Part shown: positions 600 through 17,103 of the stretch, piece after piece | Layout: each line of letters begins with the position of its first letter | How positions within the stretch are numbered: the stretch's first letter is position 1 | Assembly: GCF_000813725.1 (NCBI RefSeq) | Contig: NZ_JWLD01000047.1 | Coordinates: 1-64,000 of the forward strand | Reading direction: 5' to 3' | DNA length: 64,000 nt | Source: Leisingera sp. ANG-Vp | Lineage (GTDB): Bacteria > Pseudomonadota > Alphaproteobacteria > Rhodobacterales > Rhodobacteraceae | The notes under the pieces: model-generated | Seen by the model: the letters and a program-made list of their open reading frames with translations, nothing else | What the model was told of the DNA's origin: nothing | Databases searched by the model: none | Made by a program: the position numbers and the translations under genes

Positions 600-2054
600 T
601 CAGCTCTTCAATTTCATGGCGATGTTCTTGGTCTGCACATAGTTCCACAGCGCCTCGCGGCCTTTTTCGCGGCCGTAGCCCGATTTGCCGAATCCGCCAA
701 AGGGGGTTTCGACGCCGCCGGCATACCATTCGTTCACGAAGACCTGGCCTGCGCGGATCCGGCGGGCCGATTGGGTGGCGCGGTCGAGGTCGCGGGTGAA
801 GACGCCGCCGACAAGGCCGTATTCGGTGCTGTTGGCGATCTCGATCGCCTCGACATCGGACTGGAACTTGAGCACCGACAGAACGGGACCGAAGATTTCC
901 TCGCTGGCGATGGAGTCGTTCGGGGTGATTCCGGACACGATGGTCGGAGCCAGGAAAGCGCCTGCGTTGCCGACAGGCGTGCCGCCGGCGGCGATGGTGG
1001 CGCCGTCAGCCTGGGCCTGCTGGACGATGCCCAATGCACGGTCGCGCTGGGGCATGGAGACCATGGCGCCCATGTTGGCGCCGAATTCAGGGCGGTCGAT
1101 GCCGGCACCAACGCTGAGGCTTTGGGCTACGCTCACCGCACGCTCGACCAGTTCGTCGTGACGGCTTTCGTGCACGATGACGCGGCTCATGGCGCTGCAG
1201 ACCTGGCCCGCGTTGAAGTAGATGCCCCAGCGGATGTCATTCTCGAACGCTTCTAGGTCGGCGTCCTCATGCACGATGGCGGCGGATTTGCCGCCGAGTT
1301 CGAGCACGCAAGGAACAACATTCTGCGCCGCCGCAGTGGCGATGCGGATGCCGGTGGGCACCGAGCCGGTGAAGACGATCTGGTTCACCTGCGGATGGCC
1401 GGACAAAGCCGCCCCCGCTTCATGGCCATAGCCGCACAGGATATTCACCGCACCGGACGGGAAACCGGCAGCCTCGGCTGCGCGAGCGAGCCAGGCGTTG
1501 GTCAGCGGGGTAAGCTCGGGCGTCTTGATCACGCAGGCGTTGCCGGTGGCAAGTGCTGCCGACAGTGAGCGCGCGGTCATCTCCACCGGGTAGTTCCAGG
1601 GGATGATTTGGGCAGAGACGCCCATCGGCTCATTCTCGGTCCAGTCGAAGTAACCGCCGCCCAGCGGGATCGAGCGGCCTTCGACGGTGCTGGCCTGGTT
1701 GCCGTAGTATTCGAAATAAAGGGCGGCGCCTTCGATCTCGATCCGGGACTCCCACAGCGGCTTGCCCTGCTCCAGGGTCAGAACGCGGGCGATCTCGTCG
1801 ATGTTGTCGAGCAGGTAGCGGCCCATCGCCTGCACCATGCGGCCGCGGGCAATCGGGCGCAGCGCCGAGAGTTCGCCGGACAGATGCAGGCGGCGGGCCG
1901 CCTGCACCGCGCGGTCCACGTCCGCGGCGTCGGCCAGCGCATGGCGGGCCAGAACCTCGCCATTGGCCGGGTTGGTGACATCAATCCACCCTGCCCCGCC
2001 GGGCACCCAGGCGCCATCGATGTAGTTCAGCCATTCGGCATCAAGCTGTGTCAT
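600..2054 (-). CDS. NAD(P)-dependent aldehyde dehydrogenase
   Basis: A 484-residue ALDH-superfamily enzyme of normal length that oxidises an aldehyde to the acid. Visible motifs are the general-base Glu252 in LELGGKS, the catalytic Cys286 in NAGQVCS, the cofactor-loop FTGSVPTG near 229, and the C-terminal PFGGFGKSGYGRE. It resembles the betaine-aldehyde/gamma-aminobutyraldehyde branch, but specificity cannot be read from sequence. It starts 6 bp after the Rieske oxygenase stop, so the two are co-transcribed. A likely role is oxidising the aldehyde, such as formaldehyde or a semialdehyde, released by the upstream demethylation step. This is one of four ALDH genes in the window. Confidence 0.9.
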   Translation of the reverse strand: MTQLDAEWLNYIDGAWVPGGAGWIDVTNPANGEVLARHALADAADVDRAVQAARRLHLSGELSALRPIARGRMVQAMGRYLLDNIDEIARVLTLEQGKPLWESRIEIEGAALYFEYYGNQASTVEGRSIPLGGGYFDWTENEPMGVSAQIIPWNYPVEMTARSLSAALATGNACVIKTPELTPLTNAWLARAAEAAGFPSGAVNILCGYGHEAGAALSGHPQVNQIVFTGSVPTGIRIATAAAQNVVPCVLELGGKSAAIVHEDADLEAFENDIRWGIYFNAGQVCSAMSRVIVHESRHDELVERAVSVAQSLSVGAGIDRPEFGANMGAMVSMPQRDRALGIVQQAQADGATIAAGGTPVGNAGAFLAPTIVSGITPNDSIASEEIFGPVLSVLKFQSDVEAIEIANSTEYGLVGGVFTRDLDRATQSARRIRAGQVFVNEWYAGGVETPFGGFGKSGYGREKGREALWNYVQTKNIAMKLKS

Positions 2055-2060: not shown

Positions 2061-3161
2061 TTAGTTCCCTGCTGCGAGATCGTGGTCTGCCGCTTCACGC
2101 ATCCACTTCTGGAGATGCAGGATTGAATGTTCCGAGTTCACTCCGCAAGAGGGATCTACCACCAGGGGCCCGGGAACATAGCCGCGGCTCTTGAGGCCGC
2201 GCTGGACGGATTCCACCAGATGGATGTCTTCCTCAACCGTGGTGGCCCGGTCCTGCACTGCCATTTTGCGCACGGTTTCATTGTCCTCGCCGCCGATCGA
2301 GTACCAGCCGCGCCAGACCACAACATGGTCGGCATCCACTGCGCGCCAGTGGTAGGTGTTCAGCAAGTTGCCCGGGTAAACCTGGAACGAGAACATCGGC
2401 CAGAGGAACCAGCTGGAGTACTTCTCGTTATTCTCAAACCCCGAATTGATATCATAGGTCATCTGCTCCAGGGAATTGCACTCGGTGGTGTGGCGCAGGC
2501 AGAAGCCCTGGGGCTGGATGTCATAGGTTTCCGGCTTGATTACCCCGGTGGAAAACGTCGGATGGTTCAGGCTGCAGTGGTAGCATTCGGAGTAGTTTTC
2601 GACTGATACCTTCCAGTTGCAGTTCTCGGGGATCTCGACCCATTCCAGCGGTTTCAGATCACCCCAGTTTGGCACAAAGCTTTCCAGCTCGCTGCGGACA
2701 TTGGGGAACCACTCATCCATCGGCTTGGCCTCGGGGTCGAGGTTCACAAAGATGAAGCCCAGAAACACCTCGGTGCGGACCTCGGTCAGGCAGATCTTGG
2801 ATTTGTCAAAGCCCTGCACCGCTTTGATGTTCGGCCCGGCGCGAAGCTCGCCCGTCAGCTCATAGGTCCAGGCATGGTACGGGCATACCACGACCCGCGT
2901 GGTTCCCTCGCCCGAGACCAGCTGGTGGGCGCGGTGCTGGCAGACATTATAGAAGGTGCGGATCTCGCCATCGCGCCCCTTGATGCTGAACAGGCTTTCG
3001 CCTGCCAGTTCAAAAGCGAAATAGTCGCCAGTGTTTTCAAGCTGGCTGGCGTGGCCGGCAAATTGCCAGCTGCGGGCCAAAAGACCTTTCCGCTCGGCCT
3101 CAAAGACAACTGGGTCCGTGTAGTACCTGGCGTCAAGAGAATGGGTCAGAGGGGCGTTCAT
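2061..3161 (-). CDS. Rieske non-haem iron oxygenase, alpha subunit (betaine demethylase type)
   Basis: A 366-residue ring-hydroxylating-oxygenase alpha-subunit family protein. The Rieske [2Fe-2S] ligands are Cys74, His76, Cys93 and His96, and the mononuclear-iron histidines are His195 and His200 in ENYSECYHCSLNH. This length and motif set are shared by choline monooxygenase, GbcA, CntA and the stachydrine/hydroxyproline-betaine demethylases, which O2-dependently demethylate or hydroxylate quaternary amines. The ATG overlaps the upstream RpiR stop by 4 bp, so the two are translationally coupled. No reductase subunit is encoded in the cluster, so electrons must come from elsewhere. The divergent neighbour is a dimethylglycine-dehydrogenase-like enzyme, which supports a quaternary-amine substrate. 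The exact substrate is inferred only as a class. Confidence 0.88.
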   Translation of the reverse strand: MNAPLTHSLDARYYTDPVVFEAERKGLLARSWQFAGHASQLENTGDYFAFELAGESLFSIKGRDGEIRTFYNVCQHRAHQLVSGEGTTRVVVCPYHAWTYELTGELRAGPNIKAVQGFDKSKICLTEVRTEVFLGFIFVNLDPEAKPMDEWFPNVRSELESFVPNWGDLKPLEWVEIPENCNWKVSVENYSECYHCSLNHPTFSTGVIKPETYDIQPQGFCLRHTTECNSLEQMTYDINSGFENNEKYSSWFLWPMFSFQVYPGNLLNTYHWRAVDADHVVVWRGWYSIGGEDNETVRKMAVQDRATTVEEDIHLVESVQRGLKSRGYVPGPLVVDPSCGVNSEHSILHLQKWMREAADHDLAAGN

Positions 3162-4045
3162 TCAGGTTCCTCCGCATAAAGGCCCAGCTGGTGCCTGCGT
3201 TTGTGGAATTTCTCGACCCGCTCGACAATTTCCTCGCTGGAGACGGCAATCACGAAGGAGAGCAAAGTTTCCAAGAGGGCGATCATCGAGACGGATGAGG
3301 GGAAGAATTGCGGTGTATCCACCGCGACGGTGAACCCGTGGTCCGCATTGAGGATCACGGGACTGGCGGGGCTGTCGGAAATGCCGACGATAGTAACCCC
3401 TTGTTCGCGCGCTATTTTAATCGCCTCGATCACCTCGGCCCGGTAGGGCTTGCAGGTCATAGCAATGAGCACATCCTGGCTGTCCGCCCAGGCGAGATCG
3501 TCAATCGCCGTGGAACCGGGCCGCGGGATGGCGTGGAATTGCTTCATGCCGGTGGAGGCAAGATAGGTGAAGTTGCGGGCATTGGCGTTGTTCACCCCCA
3601 CCCCAAGCGTAAAGACCTGCCGGGAGTTCCAGATCGCATGGGCCGCGGCCTCCAGCACCTGTGCATCGATGCCTGCAAAGGTCTCCTCGATATTGCGCAT
3701 CGCGGCGGCGGCCATATCGGCATAGAGCCCGCCCAGCTCGCCGGACCTGGAAATATCCTGCAGCCAGCGCGCCCGGTCGGGGAACGACACCCCGCCTTTG
3801 CGAATCGCCTCGCGGAACGGGGCGCGGAAATCCTCGTAGCCGTCAAAGCCCACCTGCCGCGCCATGCGGACAAAGGTGTTGGGCTTCACATTCGCAGCTT
3901 CGGCAATCTCGCGCACAGTGGAAACCCCAACATCCGCAGGGTTTTCCAGCACATAGCGGGCTGCCTTCTGTGCCTCAGGAGTCAGCGCATCCCACTCTTC
4001 CGTGAGGCGCTCCAAAACAGTCGATGATACATTTGTGCCATTCAT
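3158..4045 (-). CDS. MurR/RpiR family transcriptional regulator
   Basis: A 295-residue regulator with an N-terminal HTH_6 domain (about 1-80, including TVREIAEAANVKPNTFVRMARQ) and a C-terminal SIS sugar-phosphate-binding-type domain (about 125-260). The frame stays open upstream to a TTG at 4102, which would leave only 14 bp to the divergent gene. The ATG at 4045 is preferred because the HTH begins soon after it. No clear Shine-Dalgarno precedes either. It heads the operon with the Rieske oxygenase and probably controls both divergent transcripts. A near-perfect inverted repeat at 4031-4064 covers its own start codon. The effector is presumably a catabolite of the locus. Confidence 0.9.
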   Translation of the reverse strand: MNGTNVSSTVLERLTEEWDALTPEAQKAARYVLENPADVGVSTVREIAEAANVKPNTFVRMARQVGFDGYEDFRAPFREAIRKGGVSFPDRARWLQDISRSGELGGLYADMAAAAMRNIEETFAGIDAQVLEAAAHAIWNSRQVFTLGVGVNNANARNFTYLASTGMKQFHAIPRPGSTAIDDLAWADSQDVLIAMTCKPYRAEVIEAIKIAREQGVTIVGISDSPASPVILNADHGFTVAVDTPQFFPSSVSMIALLETLLSFVIAVSSEEIVERVEKFHKRRHQLGLYAEEPE

Positions 4046-4064
4046 GATTGACGATGGTACAAAT
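4031..4064. promoter_or_regulatory. candidate RpiR operator (11-bp inverted repeat)
   Basis: The arms ATTTGTGCCAT (4031-4041) and ATGGTACAAAT (4054-4064) are inverted with one mismatch and a 12-bp spacer. The element covers the start codon of the RpiR gene and lies 52 bp before the divergent dehydrogenase. Binding there would repress the regulator itself and could control the rightward operon. Confidence 0.55.
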
Positions 4065-4116
4065 ATGGAATTAGCCTGTCGAGCAGAAAAGCGACTCTGC
4101 AATCAGGAACGGCGAA

Positions 4117-6576
4117 ATGGCTGACAAAGAATTCCCGGCACAGGCCAAAGTGGTCATCGTGGGCGGCGGCGTGATGGGGGTGGGCCTGGCCTATCACCTG
4201 GCGCATGAGGGCTGGGGCCCGGAGGTGGTTCTCCTGGAGAAATCCGAACTGACCTCCGGCTCGACCTGGCACGCAGCGGGGCAGATCACCCATTCCACCA
4301 GTTCCTTTGGCCTCGGCAAATGCGTCGACTACAACATCGGCCTCTACTCCGGGAAACTGGAGGAAGAGACCGGCCAGGCGGTGACCTGGCACGGCTGCGG
4401 CTCGTTCCGCCTGGCCTATACCGAAGACGAGATGGACTGGCTGCGCCACACCCTGTCAGTGGGCCGTTCGCTGGGCTTCAACATCGAGCTGGTCGGGCCC
4501 GAGAAGGTCGCCGAGCTGCACCCCTTCTATAATCTCGAAGGGGTTCTGGGTGCGCTTTACACCCCCGACGACGGCCACGTGGACCCGACCAACGTCACCA
4601 TGGCCATGGCCGCAGGCGCCCGCCAGAAGGGTGCCCGCATCATCCGCCACTGCCGCGCCACCAACATCACCCAGGCCGACAACGGCGAGTGGATCGTCGC
4701 GTCAGAGAAAGGCACCATCCGCTGCGAGCACGTGGTCAACGCCGGCGGCACCTATGCCCGCCAGATGGGCGAATGGTCCGGGCTGCAGCTGCCGATGACC
4801 TCGATGACCCACCACTATTTCGTGACCGAACCGGTGCCGGAGTTTGAAGCGCTGGACAAGGAACTCCCCGTCATCCGCGACGACAAGAAGGTCTCCGGCT
4901 ACATCCGCATGGAGCAGAAGCGCGGCCTGATCGGCATCTACGAGAAGGAAGGCTCCAATTCGGTCTGGCATGACCACTGCCCCTGGGAATACGAGAACTG
5001 GCTGTTTGATGCCGATTACGACCGGGTGATGCCGTGGCTGGAGGAAAGCCTGAACCGGATGCCGATCTTTGCAGACCTCGGCATCCAGCGCGAAGTGCAT
5101 GGCGCGATTTCGCATCCGCCGGATGGCAACCCGCTGATCGGCCCGGCGCCGGGCGTCAGGAACTACTGGTGCTGCTGCGGCACCCAGATCGGCATCGGCT
5201 GGGGCCCGGGCCTTACCCGCGAGCTGGCGCGCTGGATGGTGCACGGCTCCGCGGACATCTCCATGCGCGAATACGATCCGCGCCGCTTCGGCTCCTACGC
5301 CACCAAAGACTGGCAGGTGACCAAGGCGCATGAGGACTACAAGCTGCGCCACGAGATCCCCTTCCCGCATTTCAACCGCCTGGCGGGCCGCCCCATCAAA
5401 CCATCGCCGCTCTATGAACGGCTAAAGGAAAAAGGCGCGGTCTACGAGGAGGTCTACGGCCACGAGCGCCCGCGCTGGTTTGCAAAGAACGGCGTTGCGC
5501 AGCAGGACCACTATTCCTTCCGCCGCAATGAAGTGCACGACATGGTTGGGCTGGAGTGCAAGGCCGTGCGTGAAGGCGTCGGCATCATGGACATCTCCGC
5601 CTTCACCAAGGTTGAAGTCTCAGGCCCCGGCGCAGCGGCCCTGCTGGACCGGCTGACCGCCAACCGCTTGCCGCAAAAAACCGGCGGCATCGCCCTCACC
5701 CACATGCTGAACCGCCGCGGCCGGATTGAGCTGGAAACCACCGTGGTGAAGCTGGCAGACGACAGCTACTATCTGGTCTGCGCGGCCTTCTTTGAACAGC
5801 GGCTGCTGGACCACCTGAACCAGAACCTCGCGGGCGAGGAGGTGGAGATCACAACGCTTTCCACCGACTGGGCCGCCCTTGCTCTCAATGGCCCGAAAGC
5901 CCGTGAGGTCCTGGCCGCCTGCACCGATGCGGATCTGACCAACGCCGGCTTCAAATGGCTGACCGCGCAGCAGATCGAGGTTGCAGGCCACACACTCTGG
6001 GCCTTCCGCATGTCTTATGCAGGCGAGCTTGGCTGGGAGCTGCACATCCCGCGCGGCAGCACCCTGGCGGTCTATGACGCACTGTGGGCCGCTGGCGAGG
6101 CGCATGGCATTGCCGACTACGGCTCCTTTGCGATGAACGCGATGCGGATGGAAAAAGGCTTCAAAGGCGCAGGCGAGCTCACCAACGAGGTCACCCTGGC
6201 CGAGGCGGATGTGCTGCGCTTTGCCCGTACCGACAAGAACTACCTGGGCAAGGACAAGACGCTGAACGATGCGGAAAAGCCCTGGGTCTGCGCCTATCTG
6301 GAGATCGAACCGGACGGCGTGGAAGACGGCCACGGCGGCGAGGCCATCCTGCTGGAGGGTCAGGTCGTCGGCTCCACCGCCTCGGTTGCCTATGGCCATA
6401 CCGTCGGCAAGATCCTGGCCTTCGCCTATGTGAAACCGCACGCCAATGTGCCGGGAACAGAAATCGAAGTGATCGTTGCAGGCAGCCCCCGCAAAGGCCG
6501 GATCCTGGGCGCGCCCGCCTACGATCCCGAAAGCCTGCTGCCCCGCACCGACGCAGCCCTCGCCCCGGCGGAATAA
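4117..6576 (+). CDS. FAD-dependent dimethylglycine/sarcosine dehydrogenase-like protein with GcvT domain
   Basis: An 819-residue two-domain enzyme. The N-terminal DAO-type FAD domain (about 10-370) has GGGVMG at 16-21 and STWHAAG at 49-55; in mammalian dimethylglycine dehydrogenase the equivalent histidine (here His52) carries covalent FAD. The C-terminal half (about 430-805) is an aminomethyltransferase (GcvT-like) domain that passes the methyl unit to tetrahydrofolate. It oxidatively removes an N-methyl group from a secondary or tertiary amine. An AGGA Shine-Dalgarno sits about 9 bp before the ATG. It is first in the rightward operon, divergent from RpiR and the Rieske oxygenase. Together they would strip methyl groups in sequence from a betaine. 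Dimethylglycine, sarcosine and N-methylproline-type substrates are all possible. Confidence 0.88.
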   Translation: MADKEFPAQAKVVIVGGGVMGVGLAYHLAHEGWGPEVVLLEKSELTSGSTWHAAGQITHSTSSFGLGKCVDYNIGLYSGKLEEETGQAVTWHGCGSFRLAYTEDEMDWLRHTLSVGRSLGFNIELVGPEKVAELHPFYNLEGVLGALYTPDDGHVDPTNVTMAMAAGARQKGARIIRHCRATNITQADNGEWIVASEKGTIRCEHVVNAGGTYARQMGEWSGLQLPMTSMTHHYFVTEPVPEFEALDKELPVIRDDKKVSGYIRMEQKRGLIGIYEKEGSNSVWHDHCPWEYENWLFDADYDRVMPWLEESLNRMPIFADLGIQREVHGAISHPPDGNPLIGPAPGVRNYWCCCGTQIGIGWGPGLTRELARWMVHGSADISMREYDPRRFGSYATKDWQVTKAHEDYKLRHEIPFPHFNRLAGRPIKPSPLYERLKEKGAVYEEVYGHERPRWFAKNGVAQQDHYSFRRNEVHDMVGLECKAVREGVGIMDISAFTKVEVSGPGAAALLDRLTANRLPQKTGGIALTHMLNRRGRIELETTVVKLADDSYYLVCAAFFEQRLLDHLNQNLAGEEVEITTLSTDWAALALNGPKAREVLAACTDADLTNAGFKWLTAQQIEVAGHTLWAFRMSYAGELGWELHIPRGSTLAVYDALWAAGEAHGIADYGSFAMNAMRMEKGFKGAGELTNEVTLAEADVLRFARTDKNYLGKDKTLNDAEKPWVCAYLEIEPDGVEDGHGGEAILLEGQVVGSTASVAYGHTVGKILAFAYVKPHANVPGTEIEVIVAGSPRKGRILGAPAYDPESLLPRTDAALAPAE

Positions 6577-6598
6577 GCAAACCCGGCTCCCCTCTTCT

Positions 6599-6649
6599 TC
6601 TTTGCAAAAATACTCCGGGGGGAGCCGAAGGCGGGGGGCAGCGCCCCCC
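6599..6649 (+). repeat. intergenic element family 1 (CAAAAATACTCC plus hairpins)
   Basis: It follows the dehydrogenase stop. It has a TTTGCAAAAATACTCC core, an inverted GGCTCCCC/GGGGAGCC (6585-6592 and 6619-6626), and a GGGGGGC-AGC-GCCCCCC hairpin (6633-6649). Its reverse complement closely matches 61582-61632. Related copies are at 33600-33645, 49894-49950 and 60804-60855. It is probably a terminator or attenuator inside the operon. Confidence 0.6.
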
Positions 6650-6680
6650 TCCCCCGCAACCAACAGGACACCCGCGCGAC

Positions 6681-7778
6681 ATGACCCTGCCTGCAACCAT
6701 GAAAGCCGTGCTTCTGACCGGCCACGGCGGCCTCGACAAGCTCGACTACCGCGACACCGCCACGCCGCAGCCGGACAAGGGCGAGGTGCTGGTGAAGGTC
6801 GGCGCCTGCGGGCTCAACAACACCGATATCAACACGCGGACAGCCTGGTACTCCAAGGCGAATACCGATGCCCTGGGCGATGGCGCCGAAGGCGGATTTG
6901 AAAGCACCGACGATCAGGACAGCTCCTGGGGTGCAGGCGAGATCACCTTTCCCCGCATCCAAGGGGCCGATGTGGCAGGCACCATTGTGGCCGTGGGCGA
7001 GAACGCCGACCCGGCCAGAATTGGCGAGCGGGTGCTGATCGACCCTTGGCTGCTGGGCCATGGCGATTGGCTGAACCCGGAAACCTCCGCCTATTTCGGC
7101 TCCGAATGCGATGGCGGCTTTGCTGAATACACCAAGGTCCGCAGCGCCAATGCGATCAAAATTACCTCTAGCTTAAGCGACGCAGAGCTGGCCACCTTCC
7201 CCTGCGCCTATACCACTGCCGAAAACCTGGTGCAGCGCACCGCGCCGCGGCCGGGCGAAACAGTGGTGATCACCGGCGCTTCCGGCGGTGTGGGATCGGC
7301 AGCGATCCAACTGTGCCGTTTGCGCGGCTGCCGGGTGATTGCGGTGGCCTCCACCAGCAAGGCGGATCTGCTTTATCAACTGGGTGCGGCAACAGTCATC
7401 GACCGCAGCACCCCTGATCTGGAGGCCGCCATCCGCGAGGCCGCTGGCGGCCCCGTGGACATCGCGCTGGATGTGGTTGGCGCCACCACCTTCATGCCGC
7501 TGATCAATGCGCTGCGGCAGGGCGGGCGTTATTCGACCTCGGGCTGCATTGCCGGCCAGTTCGCTGAATTCGACCTGCGCCAGCTGGTCTACAAGGACCT
7601 GCAGCTCACCGGCGCCACCATCTGCCCGCCCGGCACCATGCACCGGGTCGCGGGCATGATCGAAAGCGGTGCGCTGAAACCGCTCCTGGCTGCCGCTTTC
7701 CCGCTAGAACAGCTGGCGCAGGCACAGGAAGCTTTCATTGCAAAGAAGCACACCGGAAACATTGTGGTAGTCCCATGA
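6681..7778 (+). CDS. medium-chain (zinc-type/quinone-oxidoreductase-like) dehydrogenase
   Basis: A 365-residue MDR-superfamily protein. The N-terminal GroES-like domain (about 1-150) is followed by a Rossmann domain with VITGASGGVGSAA near residues 195-207. The zinc-site cysteine/histidine pattern of classical alcohol dehydrogenases is not evident (the usual catalytic Cys region reads GLNNTD), so a quinone-oxidoreductase-like or NADPH-dependent reductase role is likely. The start is ATG 6681, followed by a second in-frame ATG six codons later; the open frame extends far upstream but overlaps the previous gene and a repeat. The stop overlaps the next start (ATGA), showing coupling to the DddQ-like cupin. 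A possible role is reducing an unsaturated product such as acryloyl-type or enoyl compounds. This is inference. Confidence 0.82.
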   Translation: MTLPATMKAVLLTGHGGLDKLDYRDTATPQPDKGEVLVKVGACGLNNTDINTRTAWYSKANTDALGDGAEGGFESTDDQDSSWGAGEITFPRIQGADVAGTIVAVGENADPARIGERVLIDPWLLGHGDWLNPETSAYFGSECDGGFAEYTKVRSANAIKITSSLSDAELATFPCAYTTAENLVQRTAPRPGETVVITGASGGVGSAAIQLCRLRGCRVIAVASTSKADLLYQLGAATVIDRSTPDLEAAIREAAGGPVDIALDVVGATTFMPLINALRQGGRYSTSGCIAGQFAEFDLRQLVYKDLQLTGATICPPGTMHRVAGMIESGALKPLLAAAFPLEQLAQAQEAFIAKKHTGNIVVVP

Positions 7779-8383
7779 GCAAAAACCTATTCGATCAGGC
7801 GCTGGCAGCCGCCAAAGCCTATCACGCCGCCCTGCCTGCCGTGGCAGAGTTCCAGCCCTGGCCCGATGACATCACCTGGGCCGGGCGCGAAAGCCGCCAG
7901 ATCCCCGGCGCCGCCTTGGTGCAATCCGACCCGGGCTTTGCCGCCGAAGGCATCCCCGCCGAAGCCGAGGTCCGCGCTCTGCAGCAGGCGATCATGGCTT
8001 TGGCGCCGCACGCGGAATGGCGCCTCACCTATACCGAGGAGGAAGTCGGCCACGACTTCCTGCAGCGCTTCGGCTGGTTTGAACTGGTCGGTCCCACCGG
8101 CCATTTCCATTCTCTTCAGACCCGGATGACCATTGGCTACTGGGGGCCGGGGCTGGATTATCCCTGGCACCAGCACGGGCCGGAGGAGCTCTACACCATC
8201 CTCTCCGGAAGTGCCGACTTCATGGCAAAAGGCGAGGAGGTCCGCCGCCTGGCCCCGGGCGACACCAAGATGCACGGGGCAAACCAGCCCCATGCAATGA
8301 TCACCAACGAGCATCCGATCCTCTGCTTCGTCTTCTGGCGCGGCGAGGGGCTGGCGGATGACCCCGCCATGTCCCCGGGCTGA
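7775..8383 (+). CDS. dddQ: DddQ-family DMSP lyase-like cupin (copy 1)
   Basis: A 202-residue protein with a C-terminal cupin. DddQ enzymes bind a divalent metal and split dimethylsulfoniopropionate into dimethylsulfide and acrylate. From memory, the R. lacuscaerulensis residues are Tyr120, His123, His125, Glu129, Tyr131 and His163. Equivalents are visible here with the same spacing: Tyr129, His132, His134, Glu138, Tyr140, and His173 in NQPHAM. The length matches the family (about 200). It overlaps the preceding dehydrogenase by 4 bp, and the enolase follows after 16 bp. It could be a true DMSP lyase, or a relative acting on a nitrogen analogue, given the betaine-type neighbours. Family assignment is strong; substrate is unproven. 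Confidence 0.78.
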   Translation: MSKNLFDQALAAAKAYHAALPAVAEFQPWPDDITWAGRESRQIPGAALVQSDPGFAAEGIPAEAEVRALQQAIMALAPHAEWRLTYTEEEVGHDFLQRFGWFELVGPTGHFHSLQTRMTIGYWGPGLDYPWHQHGPEELYTILSGSADFMAKGEEVRRLAPGDTKMHGANQPHAMITNEHPILCFVFWRGEGLADDPAMSPG

Positions 8384-8399
8384 GACAGGAGCGCACCTC

Positions 8400-9512
8400 A
8401 TGAAAATCACCCGTATCCGCGTCTTTCAAACCGGCTTGCCTTATGTTGGCGGTGCTTATGTCTGGGGCGCAGGCAACACCATTGAAACCGCCACCGCCTC
8501 TGTGGTGGTGATCGACACCGACGCAGGCCTGCAGGGCTGCGGCGAGTTCACTCCCTGCGGCGAGAATTACATGGTTGCCCATTCCGAAGGCGTGCCGGCC
8601 CTGGCCCGCCTGGTGGCGCCAGCGCTGATCGGCGAAGACCCGCGCGACGTCGCCCGGATCGAGCGGGTCATGGACCATCTGGTGCAGGGGCACGGCTATG
8701 CCAAGGGCCCGTTCGACGCCGCCTGCTGGGACATTCTGGGGCAATCTCTGGACGCACCGCTGTGGCGGCTGTGGGGCGGCAAGCTGACCGATGGCGCACC
8801 AATGTACCGGGTCGCGCCGCAGAAGGGCACCGAGGAAACCATTGCGGAAATGGACGGTTACCGGGCGCAGGGCTACCGCCAGTTCCAGGTCAAGGTCGGC
8901 GGCGACTGGGCGGCCGATATCGACCGCATCCGCTCCACCGTGCCGCTGCTGAAGCCGGGTGAAAAGGCGATGGCCGATGCCAACCAGGGCTGGCGGGTCG
9001 ACAACGCGCTGCGGGTGGCGCGGGCCACCAAGGATCTGGACTACATCCTTGAGCAGCCTTGCCGTACTTACGAGGAATGCCAGCAGGTGCGGATGCGCAC
9101 CGACCTGCCGATGAAACTGGATGAGTGCGTGACCGGCATGCAGGCCGCCCAGCGCATCGTCGCCGATCACGGTGCCGATCTGGTCTGCCTCAAGATCTCC
9201 AACCTCGGCGGCATCTCCAAGGCCTGCCGGGTGCGCGACTACCTGGTCGAGAACCGCTTGCCGGTGGTGGCCGAGGACACCTGGGGCGGCGAGATCTGCA
9301 GCGCCGCGCTGGCGCATTTCGCGGCAACCACGCCCGAGGAATACCTGCACAACACCACCGACCTGATGAACTACAACACCCGTTCCACCGGCATCGGCGG
9401 CCCGCGCGCGGAAAACGGCAAGCTCTACGCTCCGGACGCTCCGGGTCTGGGGGTGGCGCCCGATTTCGAAAGCCTCGGAGCGCCGGTGGCGGAGTTCGGA
9501 GACGCCGGGTGA
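8400..9512 (+). CDS. enolase-superfamily (mandelate racemase/muconate lactonizing type) enzyme 1
   Basis: A 370-residue enzyme with an N-terminal capping domain (about 1-125) and a (beta/alpha)7-beta barrel. Catalytic and metal residues are Lys165 (QFQVKVGG), Asp193 (ADANQG), Glu218 (LEQPC), Asp241 (LDEC) and Lys265 (LKISNLGG). Lysines on both faces of the active site fit 1,1-proton transfer, meaning epimerisation or dehydration. The same arrangement is used by hydroxyproline-betaine 2-epimerase and cis-3-hydroxyproline dehydratase. The ATG at 8400 is chosen because it begins the family's MKITRI start; the frame is open 42 bp earlier into the dddQ gene. It is paired with the DddQ-like cupin upstream. 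The substrate is unknown. Confidence 0.85.
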   Translation: MKITRIRVFQTGLPYVGGAYVWGAGNTIETATASVVVIDTDAGLQGCGEFTPCGENYMVAHSEGVPALARLVAPALIGEDPRDVARIERVMDHLVQGHGYAKGPFDAACWDILGQSLDAPLWRLWGGKLTDGAPMYRVAPQKGTEETIAEMDGYRAQGYRQFQVKVGGDWAADIDRIRSTVPLLKPGEKAMADANQGWRVDNALRVARATKDLDYILEQPCRTYEECQQVRMRTDLPMKLDECVTGMQAAQRIVADHGADLVCLKISNLGGISKACRVRDYLVENRLPVVAEDTWGGEICSAALAHFAATTPEEYLHNTTDLMNYNTRSTGIGGPRAENGKLYAPDAPGLGVAPDFESLGAPVAEFGDAG

Positions 9513-9599
9513 CTGGCCTGATCCCCTTGCCCTGTCTGGCTCGCGGCCCCAGCCGCGGGCGGGCCTAGGCTGGGCAGGTATTCAACCAGGAGAATTGCC

Positions 9600-9884
9600 A
9601 TGACCATCGCAGCCCAAGCCACCCAGATGATCGACGACGACCGCGTCCGTGTGACCCGTTTCGACTTTGCCCCCGGCGCCGAAACCGGCTGGCACAGACA
9701 TGCGATGGACTACGTGATCACCGCTGTCACCGACTGCCGCATGCGGCTGGAGATGCCGGGCGGCGAAGTCAAAGAGGTCACTGTCCCCGCGGGCACGGCC
9801 TACCGCCGCGATGAGGGCGTCGAGCACAATGTCATCAACGCCGGGGATGCGCGCATGAGTTTTGTGGAAGTGGAGCTGAAATGA
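9600..9884 (+). CDS. small cupin-domain protein
   Basis: A 94-residue single-domain cupin. Motif 1 is GAETGWHRHAMDYVITAV and motif 2 includes PAGTAYRRDEGVEHNVINAG, giving candidate metal histidines in WHRH and the C-terminal EHNV. The AGGAG at 9589-9593 is well placed before the ATG. The stop overlaps the start of enolase 2 by 4 bp (ATGA), so the two are coupled. It forms the middle member of the three cupin-enolase doublets here. It is too small to be DddQ and lacks its HxHx3ExY motif. A sugar-binding or isomerase-type accessory role is possible. Function is not recognised beyond the fold. Confidence 0.75.
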   Translation: MTIAAQATQMIDDDRVRVTRFDFAPGAETGWHRHAMDYVITAVTDCRMRLEMPGGEVKEVTVPAGTAYRRDEGVEHNVINAGDARMSFVEVELK

Positions 9885-10990
9885 AAATCACCCGGATCAC
9901 CGTCTATCAGCTCGATATGCCGCTGACCGAACCTTACTACCTGTCGGGCGGACGGCTGAAGTTCGAGAAGCTCGACAGCACATTTGTCCGCATCGACACC
10001 GATGAAGGCGTCTCGGGGTGGGGCGAAGGCTGTCCCTGGGGGCATACCTACCTGCCTGCGCATGGGCCGGGGATCCGAGCAGGGATTGAAACGCTGGCGC
10101 CAGCCCTTATTGGGCTCGATCCGCGCAGTCTGGACCATGTGAACCGGGTGATGGATGTGCAGCTTCCGGGGCACCCATATGTGAAATCGCCGATCGACAT
10201 GGCCTGCTGGGATATTCTCGGCAAAGCCTCCGGCCTGCCGCTATGGCAGCTCTTGGGCGGGGCGGAGGCCGCGCCGGTGCTGGTCAACTCGTCCATCTCC
10301 ACCGGCACCCCTGAAGAGATGCTGGCGCTGATCGGACGGGCTGCGCAAAAGGGCTACACCGTGCATTCGGCCAAAGTGGGCGGCACAGATATCGGCCTCG
10401 ACATCGACCGGATCGAGGCGATTTCCGAAGGCCTGCCCAAGGGCCACAAGGTAACCTTTGACGTGAACCGCGCCTGGCAGCCCGGCGTGGCGGTGGAAGT
10501 GCTGAACTCGGTCAAGGCGCGTGACTGGGTGGAGCAGCCCTGCGAGACGCTGGACCAATGCGCCCATGTGGCCGCCCGCGTCTCCAACCCGATCATGCTG
10601 GATGAATGCATGCATACGTTCGCCGACCATCTGGAGGCCTGGAAGCGCGGTGCCTGCGAGGGCGTGAAGGTGAAGCCCAACCGCGTCGGCGGGCTGACGC
10701 GCGCGCGGCAGATCCGTGACTTTGGCGTTTCCGTCGGCTGGCAAATGCATATCGAGGATCTGGGCGGCTCGGCCCTTGCCGATACCGCAGCGATCCATCT
10801 GGCAGCCTCGACACCGGAGGCGAACCGGCTGGCAAGCTGGCTGTGCCACTACCACCTGGACGCGGACCCGGTCCCCGGTCAGGGCGCCCGCAATGACGCA
10901 GGCGTCGCGGTGCCGCCCTCCCTGCCCGGCCTTGGCGTTACGCCTGAGGACGGCGCGCTGGGAGATCCGGTTGCGGTTTACGGAGGCTGA
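9881..10990 (+). CDS. enolase-superfamily enzyme 2 (cis-3-hydroxyproline dehydratase-like)
   Basis: A 369-residue paralogue of enzyme 1, with Lys165 (SAKVGG), Asp194 (DVNRAW), Glu218 (VEQPC), Asp241 (LDECMH) and Lys263/Lys265 (VKVKPNRVGG). The N-terminal lid, with LSGGRLKFEKLDSTF and the GHTYLPAHGPG loop, differs strongly from the other two copies, so it probably takes a different substrate. From memory this lid resembles the enolase-type cis-3-hydroxy-L-proline dehydratases of Labrenzia and Pelagibaca; I cannot verify that by alignment. Such an enzyme would make Delta1-pyrroline-2-carboxylate, which Ldh2-type reductases (compare 18172-19215) can reduce. The start overlaps the small cupin gene by 4 bp. 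Confidence 0.8.
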   Translation: MKITRITVYQLDMPLTEPYYLSGGRLKFEKLDSTFVRIDTDEGVSGWGEGCPWGHTYLPAHGPGIRAGIETLAPALIGLDPRSLDHVNRVMDVQLPGHPYVKSPIDMACWDILGKASGLPLWQLLGGAEAAPVLVNSSISTGTPEEMLALIGRAAQKGYTVHSAKVGGTDIGLDIDRIEAISEGLPKGHKVTFDVNRAWQPGVAVEVLNSVKARDWVEQPCETLDQCAHVAARVSNPIMLDECMHTFADHLEAWKRGACEGVKVKPNRVGGLTRARQIRDFGVSVGWQMHIEDLGGSALADTAAIHLAASTPEANRLASWLCHYHLDADPVPGQGARNDAGVAVPPSLPGLGVTPEDGALGDPVAVYGG

Positions 10991-10994
10991 GGCG

Positions 10995-11600
10995 ATGCCG
11001 GCGCGGCTGCTGCAGGAACTGACGGGGCTGGCAGCCCGGACCGAAGGTCTGGACTGGTTTGCCGCGCGGATGCAGGGCCTGCCGCGGCTGGACATTGCCC
11101 CGCGCCGCCTACCGGTCTGCGGTAAGATCAGCGCCCTGCGCCAAAACGAGACGCAGAACGGTCCGGCTCCCTCCAGTTCGACGCAGGATGCCGTGGAGGC
11201 GCTTATTGATGCGATCCCCAGCTTGCACTGGCAGCAGACATATACCGAGGCCGATGGTTTCTCCCGCGCGTGGCTGGACAATTACGGCTGGGTCAACCTG
11301 ATCTCTCCCGAAGGGCTCTACCAAAGCCATGAGATGCGCCTATCCATCGGCTACTGGGGCGCAGGCCAGCACTACGACGAGCACTCGCACGCGCCCGAGG
11401 AGACCTATCTGATCCTCGCAGGTCAGGCCCGGTTCCATTCCGAAGGCCGCCCCGCACGCGATGCCGGGCCTGGAGACACCATCCACCACGCACCGCACCA
11501 GAAGCACGCCATCGGCATGGTGCCCGGCCCGCTGCTGGCGGCTGCCTTCTGGCGCGGAGAAGACCTTTTGAAGAAATCCGACTTGGGAACACGCACATGA
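10995..11600 (+). CDS. dddQ: DddQ-family DMSP lyase-like cupin (copy 2)
   Basis: A 201-residue second DddQ-like protein, clearly diverged from copy 1 in its N-terminal half but with the full site: Tyr127, His130, His132, Glu136, Tyr138 (HSHAPEETY) and His171 (HQKHAI). The spacing Y-x2-H-x-H-x3-E-x-Y is identical in both copies. The ATG at 10995, four bases after the enolase 2 stop, is used; the open frame runs back through that gene but is a shadow there. The stop overlaps enolase 3 by 4 bp. Two dddQ genes close together are known from Roseovarius nubinhibens. The alternating enolase genes suggest the two copies may serve different substrates. Confidence 0.72.
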   Translation: MPARLLQELTGLAARTEGLDWFAARMQGLPRLDIAPRRLPVCGKISALRQNETQNGPAPSSSTQDAVEALIDAIPSLHWQQTYTEADGFSRAWLDNYGWVNLISPEGLYQSHEMRLSIGYWGAGQHYDEHSHAPEETYLILAGQARFHSEGRPARDAGPGDTIHHAPHQKHAIGMVPGPLLAAAFWRGEDLLKKSDLGTRT

Positions 11601-12700
11601 AAATCACCCGGATCTCCCTGTGGCACGTGCCGCTGACCAGCCACACCGCCTATTACATGGCCGAGGGCAAGACTTGCGACACGGTCGAAAGCGTGGTGCT
11701 GGCGCTGGATACCGACACCGGTCTGACCGGCTGGGGCGAGGTCTGCCCGATCCCGCATTACCTGCCCGCCTATGCCCGCGGCGTGGTGCCTGCGGTCGAG
11801 GAGATGGCACCTGTGCTGCTGGGGGCCGATCCGGTTGGACCTGAAGCCCTGATGGCCAAGCTGGATGCCTGGCTGCAAGGCCACCCCTATGCAAAGTCCG
11901 CCATCGACATTGCTCTGTGGGATCTGACCGCGCAGGCTGCCAGGCTGCCCCTGCATGCGCTGCTGGGCGGGCAGCGGCAGGCGGATATGCCGCTCTATCA
12001 CTCAATCACCTGCGTCGCGCCCGAGGAAATGGCCCGCATCGCCAAGGAGGCGCAGGCGACCGGCATCACCCAGTTCCAGGTGAAGCTGGGCGCAGACCGG
12101 GACTGGCAGGCCGATGCGGCCCGGCTGCGGATGGTGCGCGAGGCGGTGGGTGACGGGCCGCTGGTCTATGGCGACTGGAACTGCGGCGCCACCTCGCTGG
12201 ATGCCTCGCGCGTGGGCCGGGCTGTCGCCGATCTCGACATCATGCTGGAGCAGCCCTGCGCCACCATCGAAGATTGCGCCCGGGTGCGCGCGGCCTGCGG
12301 GCTGCCGATGAAGATGGATGAAAACGCTTTTGACACCGCATCGCTGCTGGCAGGCCATGCCGCCGGAGTGATGGATGCTGTGGCCATCAAACTGTCGAAA
12401 TTCGGCGGGCTTTCGGCCTCGCGCCGGGCGCGGGATCTGTGCCTGCATCTGGGCGCCAAGATGTGCATCGAGGACACTTGGGGCTCTGACATCACCACCG
12501 CGGCGCTGCTGCATCTGGGCGCCTCCACCGAGCCCTTGGCCGTGATGAATGTTTGCGACCTCTCTTCCTACGTCAGTCCCAGACTGGACCCGGCCGGACC
12601 GGAGCGGCGCAATGGCCGCATCGCCCCGCCCGAAGGCCCCGGCCTCGGCGTGCGCCCGGACCGCGGGGGGCTTGGTGCTCCCGCAGCTGTGATCGATTAA
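11597..12700 (+). CDS. enolase-superfamily enzyme 3
   Basis: A 367-residue third paralogue with Lys163 (QFQVKLG), Asp193 (YGDWNCG), Glu218 (LEQPC), Asp241 (MDENAF) and Lys265 (AIKLSKFGG). The lid (AYYMAEGKTCDTVE and GEVCPIPHYLPAYARG) is unlike those of copies 1 and 2. It is translationally coupled to dddQ copy 2 by an ATGA overlap. All three copies keep a lysine on each face of the active site, which suits racemase/epimerase or syn/anti dehydratase chemistry on a carboxylate. Hydroxyproline-betaine epimerase is one candidate from context, not from a decisive motif. Confidence 0.82.
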   Translation: MKITRISLWHVPLTSHTAYYMAEGKTCDTVESVVLALDTDTGLTGWGEVCPIPHYLPAYARGVVPAVEEMAPVLLGADPVGPEALMAKLDAWLQGHPYAKSAIDIALWDLTAQAARLPLHALLGGQRQADMPLYHSITCVAPEEMARIAKEAQATGITQFQVKLGADRDWQADAARLRMVREAVGDGPLVYGDWNCGATSLDASRVGRAVADLDIMLEQPCATIEDCARVRAACGLPMKMDENAFDTASLLAGHAAGVMDAVAIKLSKFGGLSASRRARDLCLHLGAKMCIEDTWGSDITTAALLHLGASTEPLAVMNVCDLSSYVSPRLDPAGPERRNGRIAPPEGPGLGVRPDRGGLGAPAAVID

Positions 12701-12766: not shown

Positions 12767-14041
12767 ATGGAAAAGATCCTCTCCCAGGCTGAATGGACCG
12801 AACGCGCCCGCGCGGTGCTGCCCGCCGGCGGCTTTGGCAACTTCGACCCCGGTATCGTCATCCGCGAGGGCAAGGGCTCGCGCGTGTGGGATGAAAACGG
12901 CAAGGAATACATCGACTATCTGATCGGCTCCGGGCCGATGATGCTGGGCCATGGCCACCCGGAGGTGATGGAGGCGGTGCTGGAGCAGCTGCCTAAGGGC
13001 ATGACTTTCTTTGCCAGCAACGCCCGCGGGATTGAGCTGGCCGAGGAGATCTGCCGCGCTGTGCCCTGCGGTGAGCAGCTGCGCTATGTGTCGACCGGCG
13101 GCGAGGCGGATATGTATGCGATCCGGCTGGCGCGGGCATTCACCGGTCGCACCAAGATCGTCAAATTCGAGGGCGGTTATCACGGCATGTCGGCCGAGGC
13201 GCAGATGAGCCTGGCGCCTTCGGTGCGGGTGAATTTCCCGCAGGCGGTGCCGGACAGCGCGGGTATCCCTCCGTCTGTCGCAGCCGAAGTGCTGGTGGCG
13301 CCGTTCAACGACTTTGAGTACATCAAGCAGCTGATGGCGGAACACGGATCCGAGATCGCCGCCATCATCGCCGAGCCGCTGCAGCGCATTGTACCGCCGC
13401 TTCCGGGTTTCCTTGATCTGCTGCGCGAGGAGACACAGAAACACGGCAGCCTCTTGATCTTTGACGAAGTGGTGACCGGTTTCCGCTCCACCTATGGCGG
13501 CGGGCAGGAGCTGTATAGTGTCACCCCGGACCTGGCGACACTGGGCAAGGTGATCGGCGGCGGCTTCCCCCTGGCGGCCATCGTCGGGCGTGCAGATATC
13601 ATGCAGCATTTCGACAAAGCGCAGGTTGGCGCCGAGGGCTGGCTGATGCAGCTGGGCACCCTGTCGGGCAATCCGGTGGCGGCGGTGGCCGGCCTCAAGA
13701 CCATGGAAGTGCTGCGCCGCGAGGGCGTCTATGACCGGCTGAACGGCACCGGCCAGCGGCTGATGCAAGCCACAAGTGCTGCACTGGAAGAGGCCGGGGT
13801 GCCGTTCCAGATCGTCGGCGAGCCTGCGCTGTTCGAGGTGGTCTTTACCGATGCCAAGGTTCGCGACTACCGCGATACACAGGCGGGCAATGCCGAGCGG
13901 ACCAAACGCTATAACGCGGTGCTGCGCGAGGAAGGCCTCTTCAAGTCGCCGGGCAAGACCTATCCCAGCCTGGCGCTGACAGAAGAGGACCTGGAGCAGA
14001 CTGAAGCGGCGATCCGCAAGGCGGCAATGGCGCTGGATTGA
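12767..14041 (+). CDS. class III PLP aminotransferase/glutamate-1-semialdehyde aminomutase-like
   Basis: A 424-residue fold-type I PLP enzyme. The Schiff-base lysine is Lys261 in LGKVIGGG, the PLP-contacting Asp is in LLIFDEVVTGFR (about 228-239), and the STGGEADMYAIR phosphate-binding stretch is near 108-119. It resembles glutamate-1-semialdehyde 2,1-aminomutase, but the gene sits in a catabolic operon, so haem synthesis is unlikely. AGGAACTG precedes the ATG. It is last in the rightward operon, 66 bp after enolase 3. It may transaminate an amino acid or amine formed downstream of the enolase steps. Family certain, substrate not. Confidence 0.85.
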   Translation: MEKILSQAEWTERARAVLPAGGFGNFDPGIVIREGKGSRVWDENGKEYIDYLIGSGPMMLGHGHPEVMEAVLEQLPKGMTFFASNARGIELAEEICRAVPCGEQLRYVSTGGEADMYAIRLARAFTGRTKIVKFEGGYHGMSAEAQMSLAPSVRVNFPQAVPDSAGIPPSVAAEVLVAPFNDFEYIKQLMAEHGSEIAAIIAEPLQRIVPPLPGFLDLLREETQKHGSLLIFDEVVTGFRSTYGGGQELYSVTPDLATLGKVIGGGFPLAAIVGRADIMQHFDKAQVGAEGWLMQLGTLSGNPVAAVAGLKTMEVLRREGVYDRLNGTGQRLMQATSAALEEAGVPFQIVGEPALFEVVFTDAKVRDYRDTQAGNAERTKRYNAVLREEGLFKSPGKTYPSLALTEEDLEQTEAAIRKAAMALD

Positions 14042-14153: not shown

Positions 14154-15698
14154 TCAAATAGCCCGCTGTTGCACGTGAATCGGAAACCGCTTGCGGATCT
14201 CAGCGTCGATCTCTGCCGGAATGTGGCTTGGCAGCGGTGCGGCCAGCAGCTCTTGCGTGCGGACGCGGGCCTTCTCCAGCAGATCCTTGTCCGGTGACGC
14301 CGCCCATTCCTGCGGGGTGCGGCGGTCGGCGAGCGGCGGGTAGTAATAGTCGCTCTCCATCCGGTTCAGCGTCTGTGCATGGCCCAGAAAGTGCCCAGCC
14401 CCGCCAACGCAGACATCGCGGATTACCTCCAGCGACAGCGTCTCTTCGCTGACCTCAAACCCGCGGGTGGCGCGCATGATTGAGCCGATCATGTCGTTGT
14501 CCAGCACAAAACTTTCCAGCGAGCAGCCCAGCAGAGAGCCGTACATACCCGCTGCCTCATAGATCAGATTGGCGCCGGAAAGGGCAGACAGCAGCTCGGT
14601 GATGCCTTTCTCGTAGCCTGCCTGGAAATCCGGCATCTTGGCGTCGGTCATGCCCGCCGAAACCGCGCAGGGGATATCGTAGTGCTGCGCCATCTGGGCG
14701 CAGGCGGCCATCAGAAGCCCCTGCTCGGCGCTGCCGCCTGACATGGCGCCGGTGCGCAGGTCGCTGACAAAAGGCAGCGCGCCGAAGGTGGCCGGGTGGC
14801 CGGGGTTCAGGAGGTTCACGTAGACCAGCCCGGCGAGGACTTCGGCAGTTTGCTGAGCAACCGCCCCGGCCAATGGTGCCGGGCTGGTGGCACCCGCCTG
14901 CCCTGCCGAGACCAGCTTCAGCGGGATGCCATGGCGGGCCGCGCATTCGATCACGCCCAACGCCTCCTCGGCGAAGGTCAGCGGCGGCACAATAAAACAG
15001 GTAGAGACGCAAAACGGCGGCCGCGCCCGCAGAGCCTCCGGGCCGCCTGCGACCATCTGCATCATCTGCACCGCGGCCTCCATGTTCTCTTCCGAGGTGA
15101 AGGAGCCACCCACCGGCTTGGCAGTACCTGCAAGACAGGCATAGGCGGTGTTGAGGTCCATCTCAAACGGGTCGGTGAGATCGCGCGCCACCACCGTGCG
15201 CTGGAACATGTGGATGTTGGGCAGCGCCTCGGCCAGGCGGGCCATGTCGTAGAGATCCTGCAGGGTGCTGTCGCGGATTTCGCCGGTCAGGCTGTCGACG
15301 ATATGCACCGCGGCGCCAGAAGTGCCCAGGTGGATGCGGGTGCCGGAAGGGTCGAGGTCGTACTCCGCCTTCTGCCCGTGCAGTTTGAAGCCGCGGCCCG
15401 CGATCTTCAGGGTGTTTTCAACCAGACCGGAGGGCATCAGCAAGCGTCCGTCTTCGGTCAGCGAACCACCGGCGCTGCAAACGGTATCAATGCATTTCGG
15501 GGTGGCGCCTTTGACGCCGATCTCTTCGAGGATGCGGAAGGCGGTTTCACCGACCATTTCGATCTCGCGTGCGGTGAAGGGCGCAAAACGGCCGCCCTCG
15601 ATGCCCGGCCAGATCGAGGTTGAAGGGCCGGAGCCGGCGCCACCGGCGCGTTCGGATCGGCGGGCTGCGCGGCCGCCGCTGCGGCGTTGGCGGGTCAT
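14154..15698 (-). CDS. trimethylamine methyltransferase (MttB/COG5598) family protein, non-pyrrolysine
   Basis: A 514-residue MttB-superfamily protein, the length of full MttB, with no in-frame amber codon. It therefore belongs to the non-pyrrolysine branch, whose studied members (MtgB, MtpB, MtcB) move a methyl group from glycine betaine, proline betaine or carnitine to a corrinoid protein. It has a basic, low-complexity N-terminus (about 1-26) before the barrel. No corrinoid protein or reductive activator gene is in the window, which is unusual for that chemistry. It overlaps the MmgE/PrpD gene by 4 bp and is last in the leftward operon. It is likely a quaternary-amine demethylase, or a related enzyme of unknown acceptor. 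Confidence 0.8.
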   Translation of the reverse strand: MTRQRRSGGRAARRSERAGGAGSGPSTSIWPGIEGGRFAPFTAREIEMVGETAFRILEEIGVKGATPKCIDTVCSAGGSLTEDGRLLMPSGLVENTLKIAGRGFKLHGQKAEYDLDPSGTRIHLGTSGAAVHIVDSLTGEIRDSTLQDLYDMARLAEALPNIHMFQRTVVARDLTDPFEMDLNTAYACLAGTAKPVGGSFTSEENMEAAVQMMQMVAGGPEALRARPPFCVSTCFIVPPLTFAEEALGVIECAARHGIPLKLVSAGQAGATSPAPLAGAVAQQTAEVLAGLVYVNLLNPGHPATFGALPFVSDLRTGAMSGGSAEQGLLMAACAQMAQHYDIPCAVSAGMTDAKMPDFQAGYEKGITELLSALSGANLIYEAAGMYGSLLGCSLESFVLDNDMIGSIMRATRGFEVSEETLSLEVIRDVCVGGAGHFLGHAQTLNRMESDYYYPPLADRRTPQEWAASPDKDLLEKARVRTQELLAAPLPSHIPAEIDAEIRKRFPIHVQQRAI

Positions 15699-17026: not shown

Positions 17027-17051
17027 GCAAAAGAACCACTGCAATTGTTCT

Positions 17052-17103
17052 GCCTGGCCGATAGGCCGGGCAGCGTCCGTCCGCCCCCCCGGGCGGGCGC
17101 TAC
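17052..17103 (-). repeat. intergenic element family 2, copy B (inverted)
   Basis: The reverse complement matches copy A at 14083-14133, including the 'GCGCCCGCCC...GGGGGCGGACGG' and 'GCTGCCCGGCCTATC' segments. It lies between the fatty-acid-hydroxylase-type gene and the PrpD gene. The two copies bracket the PrpD-MttB pair in opposite orientation. Confidence 0.6.

Follow-up and report, generated by a model that had tools for sequence, protein, structure and literature searches.

The gene cluster of Leisingera sp. ANG-Vp

The genome of Leisingera sp. ANG-Vp (Alphaproteobacteria, Rhodobacteraceae; assembly GCF_000813725.1) carries a gene cluster in which cupins of the DddQ type, named after a dimethylsulfoniopropionate (DMSP) lyase, lie among enzymes of the enolase superfamily. 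We have analysed this cluster and its relatives, starting from positions 1 to 64,000 of contig NZ_JWLD01000047.1, a stretch of 64,000 nucleotides that is hereafter called the window. Its forward strand encodes a dimethylglycine dehydrogenase (DMGDH)-like flavin adenine dinucleotide oxidoreductase with GCV_T folate domains (4117..6576; Pfam DAO, FAO_M, GCV_T and GCV_T_C), followed by a zinc-type medium-chain dehydrogenase/reductase (MDR; 6573..7778 as a reading frame, whose start is not fixed; Pfam ADH_N/ADH_zinc_N). Then come the DddQ-type cupin A (7775..8383), enolase E1 (8400..9512), a small single-domain cupin that is not of the DddQ type (9600..9884), enolase E2 (9881..10990), the divergent DddQ-type cupin B (10995..11600), enolase E3 (11597..12700) and, as the last gene of the operon, a class-III (GSA-like) aminotransferase (12767..14041; Pfam Aminotran_3, 208 bits). 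The reverse strand holds an RpiR/SIS-type regulator (3158..4102; Pfam HTH_6 and SIS), divergent from the DMGDH-like gene, and the alpha subunit of a Rieske ring-hydroxylating oxygenase (2061..3161; Pfam Rieske and Ring_hydroxyl_A), whose N half is GbcA-like and which scores 154 bits against the GbcA model (cut-off 670). These surroundings look like those of a pathway in which a quaternary amine is N-demethylated and then transaminated.

A sequence-only reading of this DNA had seen here three successive cupin-enolase doublets. The gene order is indeed cupin A, E1, small cupin, E2, cupin B and E3, and the spacing it gave is right, with a 16-bp gap between cupin A and E1 and ATGA overlaps between the small cupin and E2 and between cupin B and E3. 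It took each doublet for a two-step unit, where the enolase would prepare an isomer and the cupin would carry out an elimination, and the tight order and spacing in the window speak in favour of this idea. In the same operon, cupin A shares its first 4 bp (7775-7778) with the end of the MDR gene, the start of cupin B lies 4 bp beyond E2, and the gap between E1 and the small cupin measures 87 bp. The pairs therefore do not stand apart as units: the spacing ties the cupins to their upstream genes as closely as to the downstream ones.

A constant core with variable modules

Related loci were gathered by three routes: cupin matches, DMGDH matches and named contigs. Our family sample comprised 394 genomes, 189 of them with matches to PF16867 (167 above the cut-off), and searches with cupins A and B led to 60 fetched stretches. 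A DMGDH-led search based on a 20-sequence alignment was added so that loci would not be chosen by their cupins; another 38 stretches and 80 named loci were then fetched. The DMGDH-like protein matches 71 of the 394 genomes at E 1e-200, 59 of those above 1100 bits, and the window protein is 73-88% identical to 19 core-locus homologues. There are 78 loci with a DMGDH-like gene above 1100 bits, among which 62 reach the aminotransferase and 15 are incomplete; the duplicates L166 (dropped from the 62) and L243 (among the 15) were spotted by their equal scores, and other duplicates may remain. Genes were labelled by phmmer against the window genes, and unlabelled genes are uncounted.

The constant part of the 62 complete loci consists of Rieske and RpiR genes diverging from DMGDH, E3 and the class-III aminotransferase, the Rieske gene keeping its place beside RpiR and DMGDH across the core loci. 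Many genera of the family have loci with the conserved cluster, which is therefore not a chance arrangement. E3 is found in 54 of the 62 loci, MDR in 41, E2 in 38, a DddQ-type cupin in 24, E1 in 17 and the small cupin in eight, and E3 is the sole labelled gene between DMGDH and the aminotransferase in 13. Cupins labelled B occur in four loci, three of them with a member of the window's cupin-B clade. In 16 of the 78 loci (duplicates counted) there is also a GFA-type formaldehyde enzyme. The gene order of the window is unique among the 62, with L097 and L098 as the nearest.

The 24 cupin loci out of 62 are not an unbiased rate, as the loci come partly from cupin-led searches. Among the 59 core genomes of the family sample, a DddQ-type cupin lies inside the locus in 21, which is a lower bound because some loci are truncated at contig ends. 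Counted over whole genomes, cupin A matches of at least 60 bits are present in 28 of the 59 core genomes versus 33 of the 335 others (p 1e-10, kinship uncorrected), and in seven of those 28 a match falls outside the core locus. The cupin locus was fetched for 54 of these 61 genomes; seven were left out, in five of which the match lies no more than 3.3 kb from a contig start, and lower-scoring second cupin copies were left out of the fetched loci.

No support for cupin-enolase pairs

The idea of each doublet as a two-step unit is contradicted by gene counts, by the cupin tree and by protein distances. The number of DddQ-type cupins equals that of the enolases in only two of 24 cupin loci and, with the small cupin included, in five of 25 (the window, L103, L108, L161 and L162), and in 31 of the 62 loci E3 is present while a DddQ-type cupin is absent. 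The gene that follows cupin A also varies: over 27 copies it is E1 (11), E2 (six), another cupin A (four), the small cupin (two), E3 (two), cupin B (one) or an unassigned enolase (one), and the four copies of cupin B precede E3 in three cases and E1 in one. Outside the core, no labelled enolase adjoins the cupin in 37 of 38 loci (of 40 listed, L128 and L129 were set aside as truncated or divergent core loci), the exception being L093, where E2 is followed by cupin B; an MDR gene adjoins the cupin in five of the 38.

Distances were compared by Mantel tests in which each locus was represented by a single cupin A, the one lying farthest away from DMGDH, and cupin B, being too rare, was left out. 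The sequence-only reading would have taken cupin clades that track their neighbouring enolases as a sign of functional pairing, and no such tracking is seen: the distances of cupin A follow neither E1 (r 0.07, n=15) nor E2 (r 0.13, n=22) nor E3 (r 0.00, n=23), and MDR no better (r 0.05, n=22), none of these values being significant. DMGDH distances correlate with those of E1 (r 0.78), Rieske (0.70), the class-III aminotransferase (0.68), E2 (0.46) and MDR (0.46). The mean cupin distance is 1.08, versus 0.27-0.46 for the other proteins, and the missing cupin signal could be blurred by fast evolution as well as by replacement. In the cupin tree (78 rows), the placement of cupins inside or outside the core needs 21 changes, at least 16 of them on starred branches. 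With shuffled labels the average is 26, and as only 16 of 500 shuffles go as low as 21, there is some clustering of core placement. By this tree, cupins have joined or left the locus many times.

One argument left to the doublets concerns E1, which lies in a cupin-bearing locus in 14 of 17 cases (Fisher p 2.4e-5, kinship uncorrected), and a weak tie between E1 and the cupin is possible. In phylogeny-aware pairs, drawn from a quick tree, E1 and the cupin agree in direction in 3.8 of 11 and disagree in 0.1 (median p 0.125, not significant), and E2 and the cupin show no association (p 1). The pair that does co-vary is MDR with E2 (Mantel r 0.64; partial r 0.59 given DMGDH, p 0.002), with four to seven phylogeny-aware pairs of 10 going the same way and none or one the opposite way on the quick tree. 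Two observations had been named beforehand as fatal to the doublets, namely cupins and enolases shuffled independently of each other and homologous cupins without enolases, and both were made. We regard the two-step unit as largely refuted and very improbable; what look like cupin-enolase pairs arise as a side effect of the order of the genes.

A different partnership would join the cupin to the MDR reductase, the former making an unsaturated acid that the latter reduces, with the enolases acting separately. The gene before cupin A is MDR in 20 of 27 cases (cupin A in four, DMGDH in three), the two genes overlap in the window, and the five non-core MDR-cupin pairs stand without an enolase. However, cupin distances do not track MDR, which occurs without a DddQ-type cupin in 20 of the 62 loci and tracks E2 instead, and we hold this partnership to be decidedly unlikely.

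The DddQ-type cupins

The assignment of two cupins to the DddQ type is confirmed: A and B pass the Pfam DMSP_lyase model (PF16867; 76.9 and 72.6 bits, cut-off 27), and the small cupin matches Cupin_2 alone (43.5 bits; its PDB matches are 2fqp and 3lag). Cupins A and B are the only PF16867 matches in the source genome at E <= 0.001, and their best PDB matches are entries named DMSP lyase or DddQ (4b29 at 209 bits for cupin A). Cupin A keeps H123, H125, E129, H163, Y120 and Y131, which we take to be the metal ligands and catalytic tyrosines of DddQ, as well as Trp122, and in the cupin tree it falls in a starred set of six with 4b29, presumably the DddQ of Roseovarius nubinhibens. Cupin B retains the ligands and both tyrosines, has Glu in place of Trp122 and belongs to a separate clade; Trp122 is missing in all seven rows of this clade and also in 12 of the 62 other DddQ-type rows. 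The solved DddQ 5jso, which we take to be that of Ruegeria lacuscaerulensis, shares 96.8% identity with the cupin that Ruegeria intermedia DSM 29341 carries in its locus (L154), where the gene order is DMGDH-MDR-cupin-E2-E3-aminotransferase.

Linkage of a cupin with an MDR gene is common to the window and to the dddQ loci of Ruegeria and Roseovarius nubinhibens: according to excerpts of PMC3338564, both R. pomeroyi and Rsv. nubinhibens have an MDR028 gene linked with dddQ, and the window MDR gene is probably of this type. The descriptions of the dddQ loci in those excerpts come without the context of Rieske, DMGDH, enolase and aminotransferase genes, and the window has, in addition, a cupin B lying between E2 and E3. 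In an excerpt of PMC9038784, dddQ is listed among the DMSP genes of R. pomeroyi.

The locus could be seen as an operon for DMSP or a DMSP analogue, in which the DddQ cupins would be true DMSP lyases and the remaining genes would serve related onium compounds. The catalytic residues conserved in cupins A and B fit this view, as do the solved DddQ that belongs to the same locus type and the mutant and induction data discussed below from excerpts of the review PMC5395565. It is harder to reconcile with the 38 of 62 loci that have no DddQ-type cupin and with the finding that, besides the cupins, no core gene reaches a DMSP-enzyme model, the folate part of DMGDH scoring 64 bits against DMSP demethylase (cut-off 410). 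According to excerpts of PMC3338564, acrylate sensitivity was not relieved by the MDR028 gene from Rsv. nubinhibens, and excerpts of PMC5395565 give DddQ a Km for DMSP of 22 mM. With family members also present in rhizobial betaine clusters, as detailed below, we judge a DMSP operon unlikely.

Tandem DddQ-type cupins resembling dddQ1/dddQ2 occur in L103, L104, L110, L112 and L115, in and out of the core, and the copies of each pair split to different parts of the cupin tree. Non-core DddQ-type cupins of L122, L117, L126 and L135 lie near DMGDH-, MTTB- or Rieske-like genes, an observation for which no control loci were compared.

The three enolases

All three enolase-superfamily genes carry the MR_MLE N and C domains and belong to the muconate-lactonizing enzyme (MLE) group. 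Their best solved relatives are 2rdx for E1 (649 bits), 2qdd for E2 (686 bits) and 4mgg for E3 (275 bits), 4mgg being second best for E1. In the enolase tree, which was built by a quick method and carries a long-branch warning, E3 forms a single clade of 62 rows (100*), all 48 rows of E2 group with 2qdd in a starred set of 50 members, and a starred set of 23 that includes 2rdx holds 22 of the 23 rows of E1. Both catalytic lysines and the D/E/D metal ligands are invariant in 133 rows (23 E1, 48 E2 and 62 E3), a count that leaves out seven low-scoring rows.

The known pathways with hydroxyproline betaine 2-epimerase (HpbD) combine a Rieske demethylase with an MLE-group enolase, and we take PDB entries 2pmq and 4h2h to be this epimerase. 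The position of HpbD Trp320, presumably a cation-pi contact with the quaternary nitrogen, is Trp in 48 of 48 E2 rows, Thr in 23 of 23 E1 rows and Cys in 62 of 62 E3 rows. E2 shares with HpbD this tryptophan, the two catalytic lysines and the metal ligands, and would therefore be the likeliest of the three to bind a betaine, whereas E1 and E3, which have no Trp320, may see demethylated or hydroxylated intermediates. The HpbD DDAW segment (Asp-Asp-x-Trp) is missing in E2: the D, D and W positions read E, D and G in the window protein and M, A and G in 39 of the 48 rows, which disfavours a plain HpbD identity. E2 is also closer to 2qdd and 3eez, and the window differs from HpbD systems in having a class-III aminotransferase.

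Another candidate identity was c3LHypD, to which E3 and E1 are linked through 4mgg, their first and second solved match respectively, E1 also sharing with 4mgg the Thr at position 320. Against the c3LHypD equivalog model (NF043002), E1 scores 405.8, E2 318.2 and E3 340.0, all below the curated cut-off of 500, and this identity was rejected.

DddQ-family cupins in rhizobia and other bacteria

In eight of eight Rhizobiaceae plasmid loci (L272-L274, L277-L280 and L283), hand-picked from 132 matching records and many of them near kin, an NADH:flavin oxidoreductase gene is immediately followed by one for a DddQ-family cupin. In six of the eight, tblastn also finds nearby genes for proC, electron transfer flavoprotein (ETF), GFA, or a Rieske protein with its reductase (GbcA/GbcB-like), and those loci that have annotation list betaine ATP-binding cassette transporters. 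The Rieske protein and reductase of one locus match the GbcA and GbcB models below the cut-off, and its flavoenzyme matches its model likewise. These clusters would be of the stachydrine type, with the flavoenzyme as a putative StcD. As in the window, the cupin stands amid N-demethylation genes; unlike the window, the annotated stretches have no enolase, and the flavoenzyme is a different one. In L273 and L279, the ETF genes are followed by a second cupin of the PF16867 type. In Paracoccus aminophilus, sarcosine oxidase and carnitine dehydrogenase genes are found near the cupin.

A proposed betaine-type catabolic locus

Our preferred explanation, which we consider somewhat probable, is that the cluster at about 2.06-14.04 kb is a catabolic locus for a betaine-type compound, that is, a carboxylated quaternary amine; we infer each of its reactions from gene content, conservation, clades and residues. 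The fixed core (Rieske, RpiR, DMGDH-like, E3 and aminotransferase) is combined with MDR plus E2, E1, the small cupin and between zero and two DddQ-type cupins, all of which vary. The Rieske and DMGDH-like enzymes would remove N-methyl groups as formaldehyde and methylene-folate, and the class-III aminotransferase would take off the freed amino group. Betaine-lipid head groups, carnitine and beta-alanine betaine are conceivable substrates. Enolases and DddQ cupins would have one half-reaction in common, the metal-assisted abstraction of an alpha-proton from a carboxylate. They might work in parallel rather than as sequential pairs, being exchangeable epimerases or beta-elimination lyases through which different isomers or analogues enter the pathway. 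The MDR reductase is probably coupled to E2. From the sequence-only reading, the DddQ-type cupins, the MLE-group enolases and the quaternary-amine setting with Rieske and DMGDH-like genes are retained, and the doublets as two-step units are abandoned.

We also propose, only tentatively, a broader idea: DddQ-family cupins across Alphaproteobacteria could primarily be alpha-proton-abstracting enzymes (epimerases or lyases) of betaine demethylation, sharing a half-reaction with the enolases next to them, and DMSP cleavage would be a secondary activity put to use by some roseobacters. Many DddQ proteins may lyse DMSP only on the side, and what DddQ usually does may not be what its textbook name says.

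Several points weigh against a betaine role for the locus and its cupins. The parallel use of cupins and enolases is something that we infer, and the contact made by Trp320 is presumed. An RpiR/SIS regulator and a class-III aminotransferase are not known from the proline-betaine routes. DMGDH tracks E3, a member of the core, weakly (r 0.22) and the cupin about equally (r 0.26). In the two Sinorhizobium meliloti loci among the rhizobial eight, tblastn found the flavin oxidoreductase and none of the other four markers sought; no demethylase lies beside the plasmid cupins of Phyllobacterium and Gemmobacter, and the cupin of Paracoccus aminophilus has no adjoining NADH:flavin oxidoreductase. The strongest contrary evidence comes from excerpts of the review PMC5395565: production of dimethyl sulfide (DMS) is down by 97% in a dddQ mutant of R. 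pomeroyi and by 20% in one of Rsv. nubinhibens, and DMSP induces dddQ, so that DMSP lysis looks physiological in R. pomeroyi.

If many DddQ proteins serve betaine breakdown, the counts of dddQ that are made in metagenomes as a marker of DMS production overstate the DMS potential. Such a role would also simply explain the millimolar Km for DMSP found in the excerpts of PMC5395565. The locus itself offers a testable pathway, with three MLE-group enolases of distinct invariant signature, for two of which (E1 and E2) close structures have been solved. None of the enzyme families is new. We found no description of the locus as a unit, or of its link to DddQ, in open-licence papers of PubMed Central, where absence proves little; part of the finding may be known, given the title of Lei 2018, as cited in an excerpt of PMC8528806, by which the family contains enzymes of unknown function.

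Variant loci and neighbouring genes

Other genes recur around the core, mostly on its Rieske side: representatives of three recurrent clusters match models for arylmalonate decarboxylase (16 loci), sulfotransferase (15) and GFA (16), in L249, L130, L258 and others. In genome G200 the locus is split over three places, with E2-cupin B, cupin A and DMGDH-MDR-E1 apart from each other (L093, L102 and L240). A plasmid of Ruegeria sp. SCSIO 43209 (L276) has a core-like locus with two enolases beside phn phosphonate genes; its PLSDB gene table, which is incomplete, shows no DddQ cupin or regulator.

In the window, the Rieske gene is followed on the reverse strand by a betaine aldehyde dehydrogenase (BADH)-like gene (600..2054; Pfam Aldedh, 505 bits), a variable member of the Rieske-side operon. 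It scores 416 bits against the BADH model (cut-off 669), and its homologues adjoin the Rieske gene in some core loci. At the other end, convergent with the operon, a MttB-superfamily protein is encoded at 14154-15698 on the reverse strand (MTTB, 388 bits; TIGR02369, 360 bits, below the cut-off of 525), which looks like a local addition, as its matches in other core loci are weak. The reverse strand continues at 15695-25199 with genes for PrpD/MmgE, FA_hydroxylase, Ldh_2, an aldehyde dehydrogenase, a thiamine pyrophosphate enzyme, a GMC oxidoreductase and an isocitrate-type dehydrogenase. This run, adjoined by a divergent LysR gene at 25297-26196, is possibly another catabolic operon.

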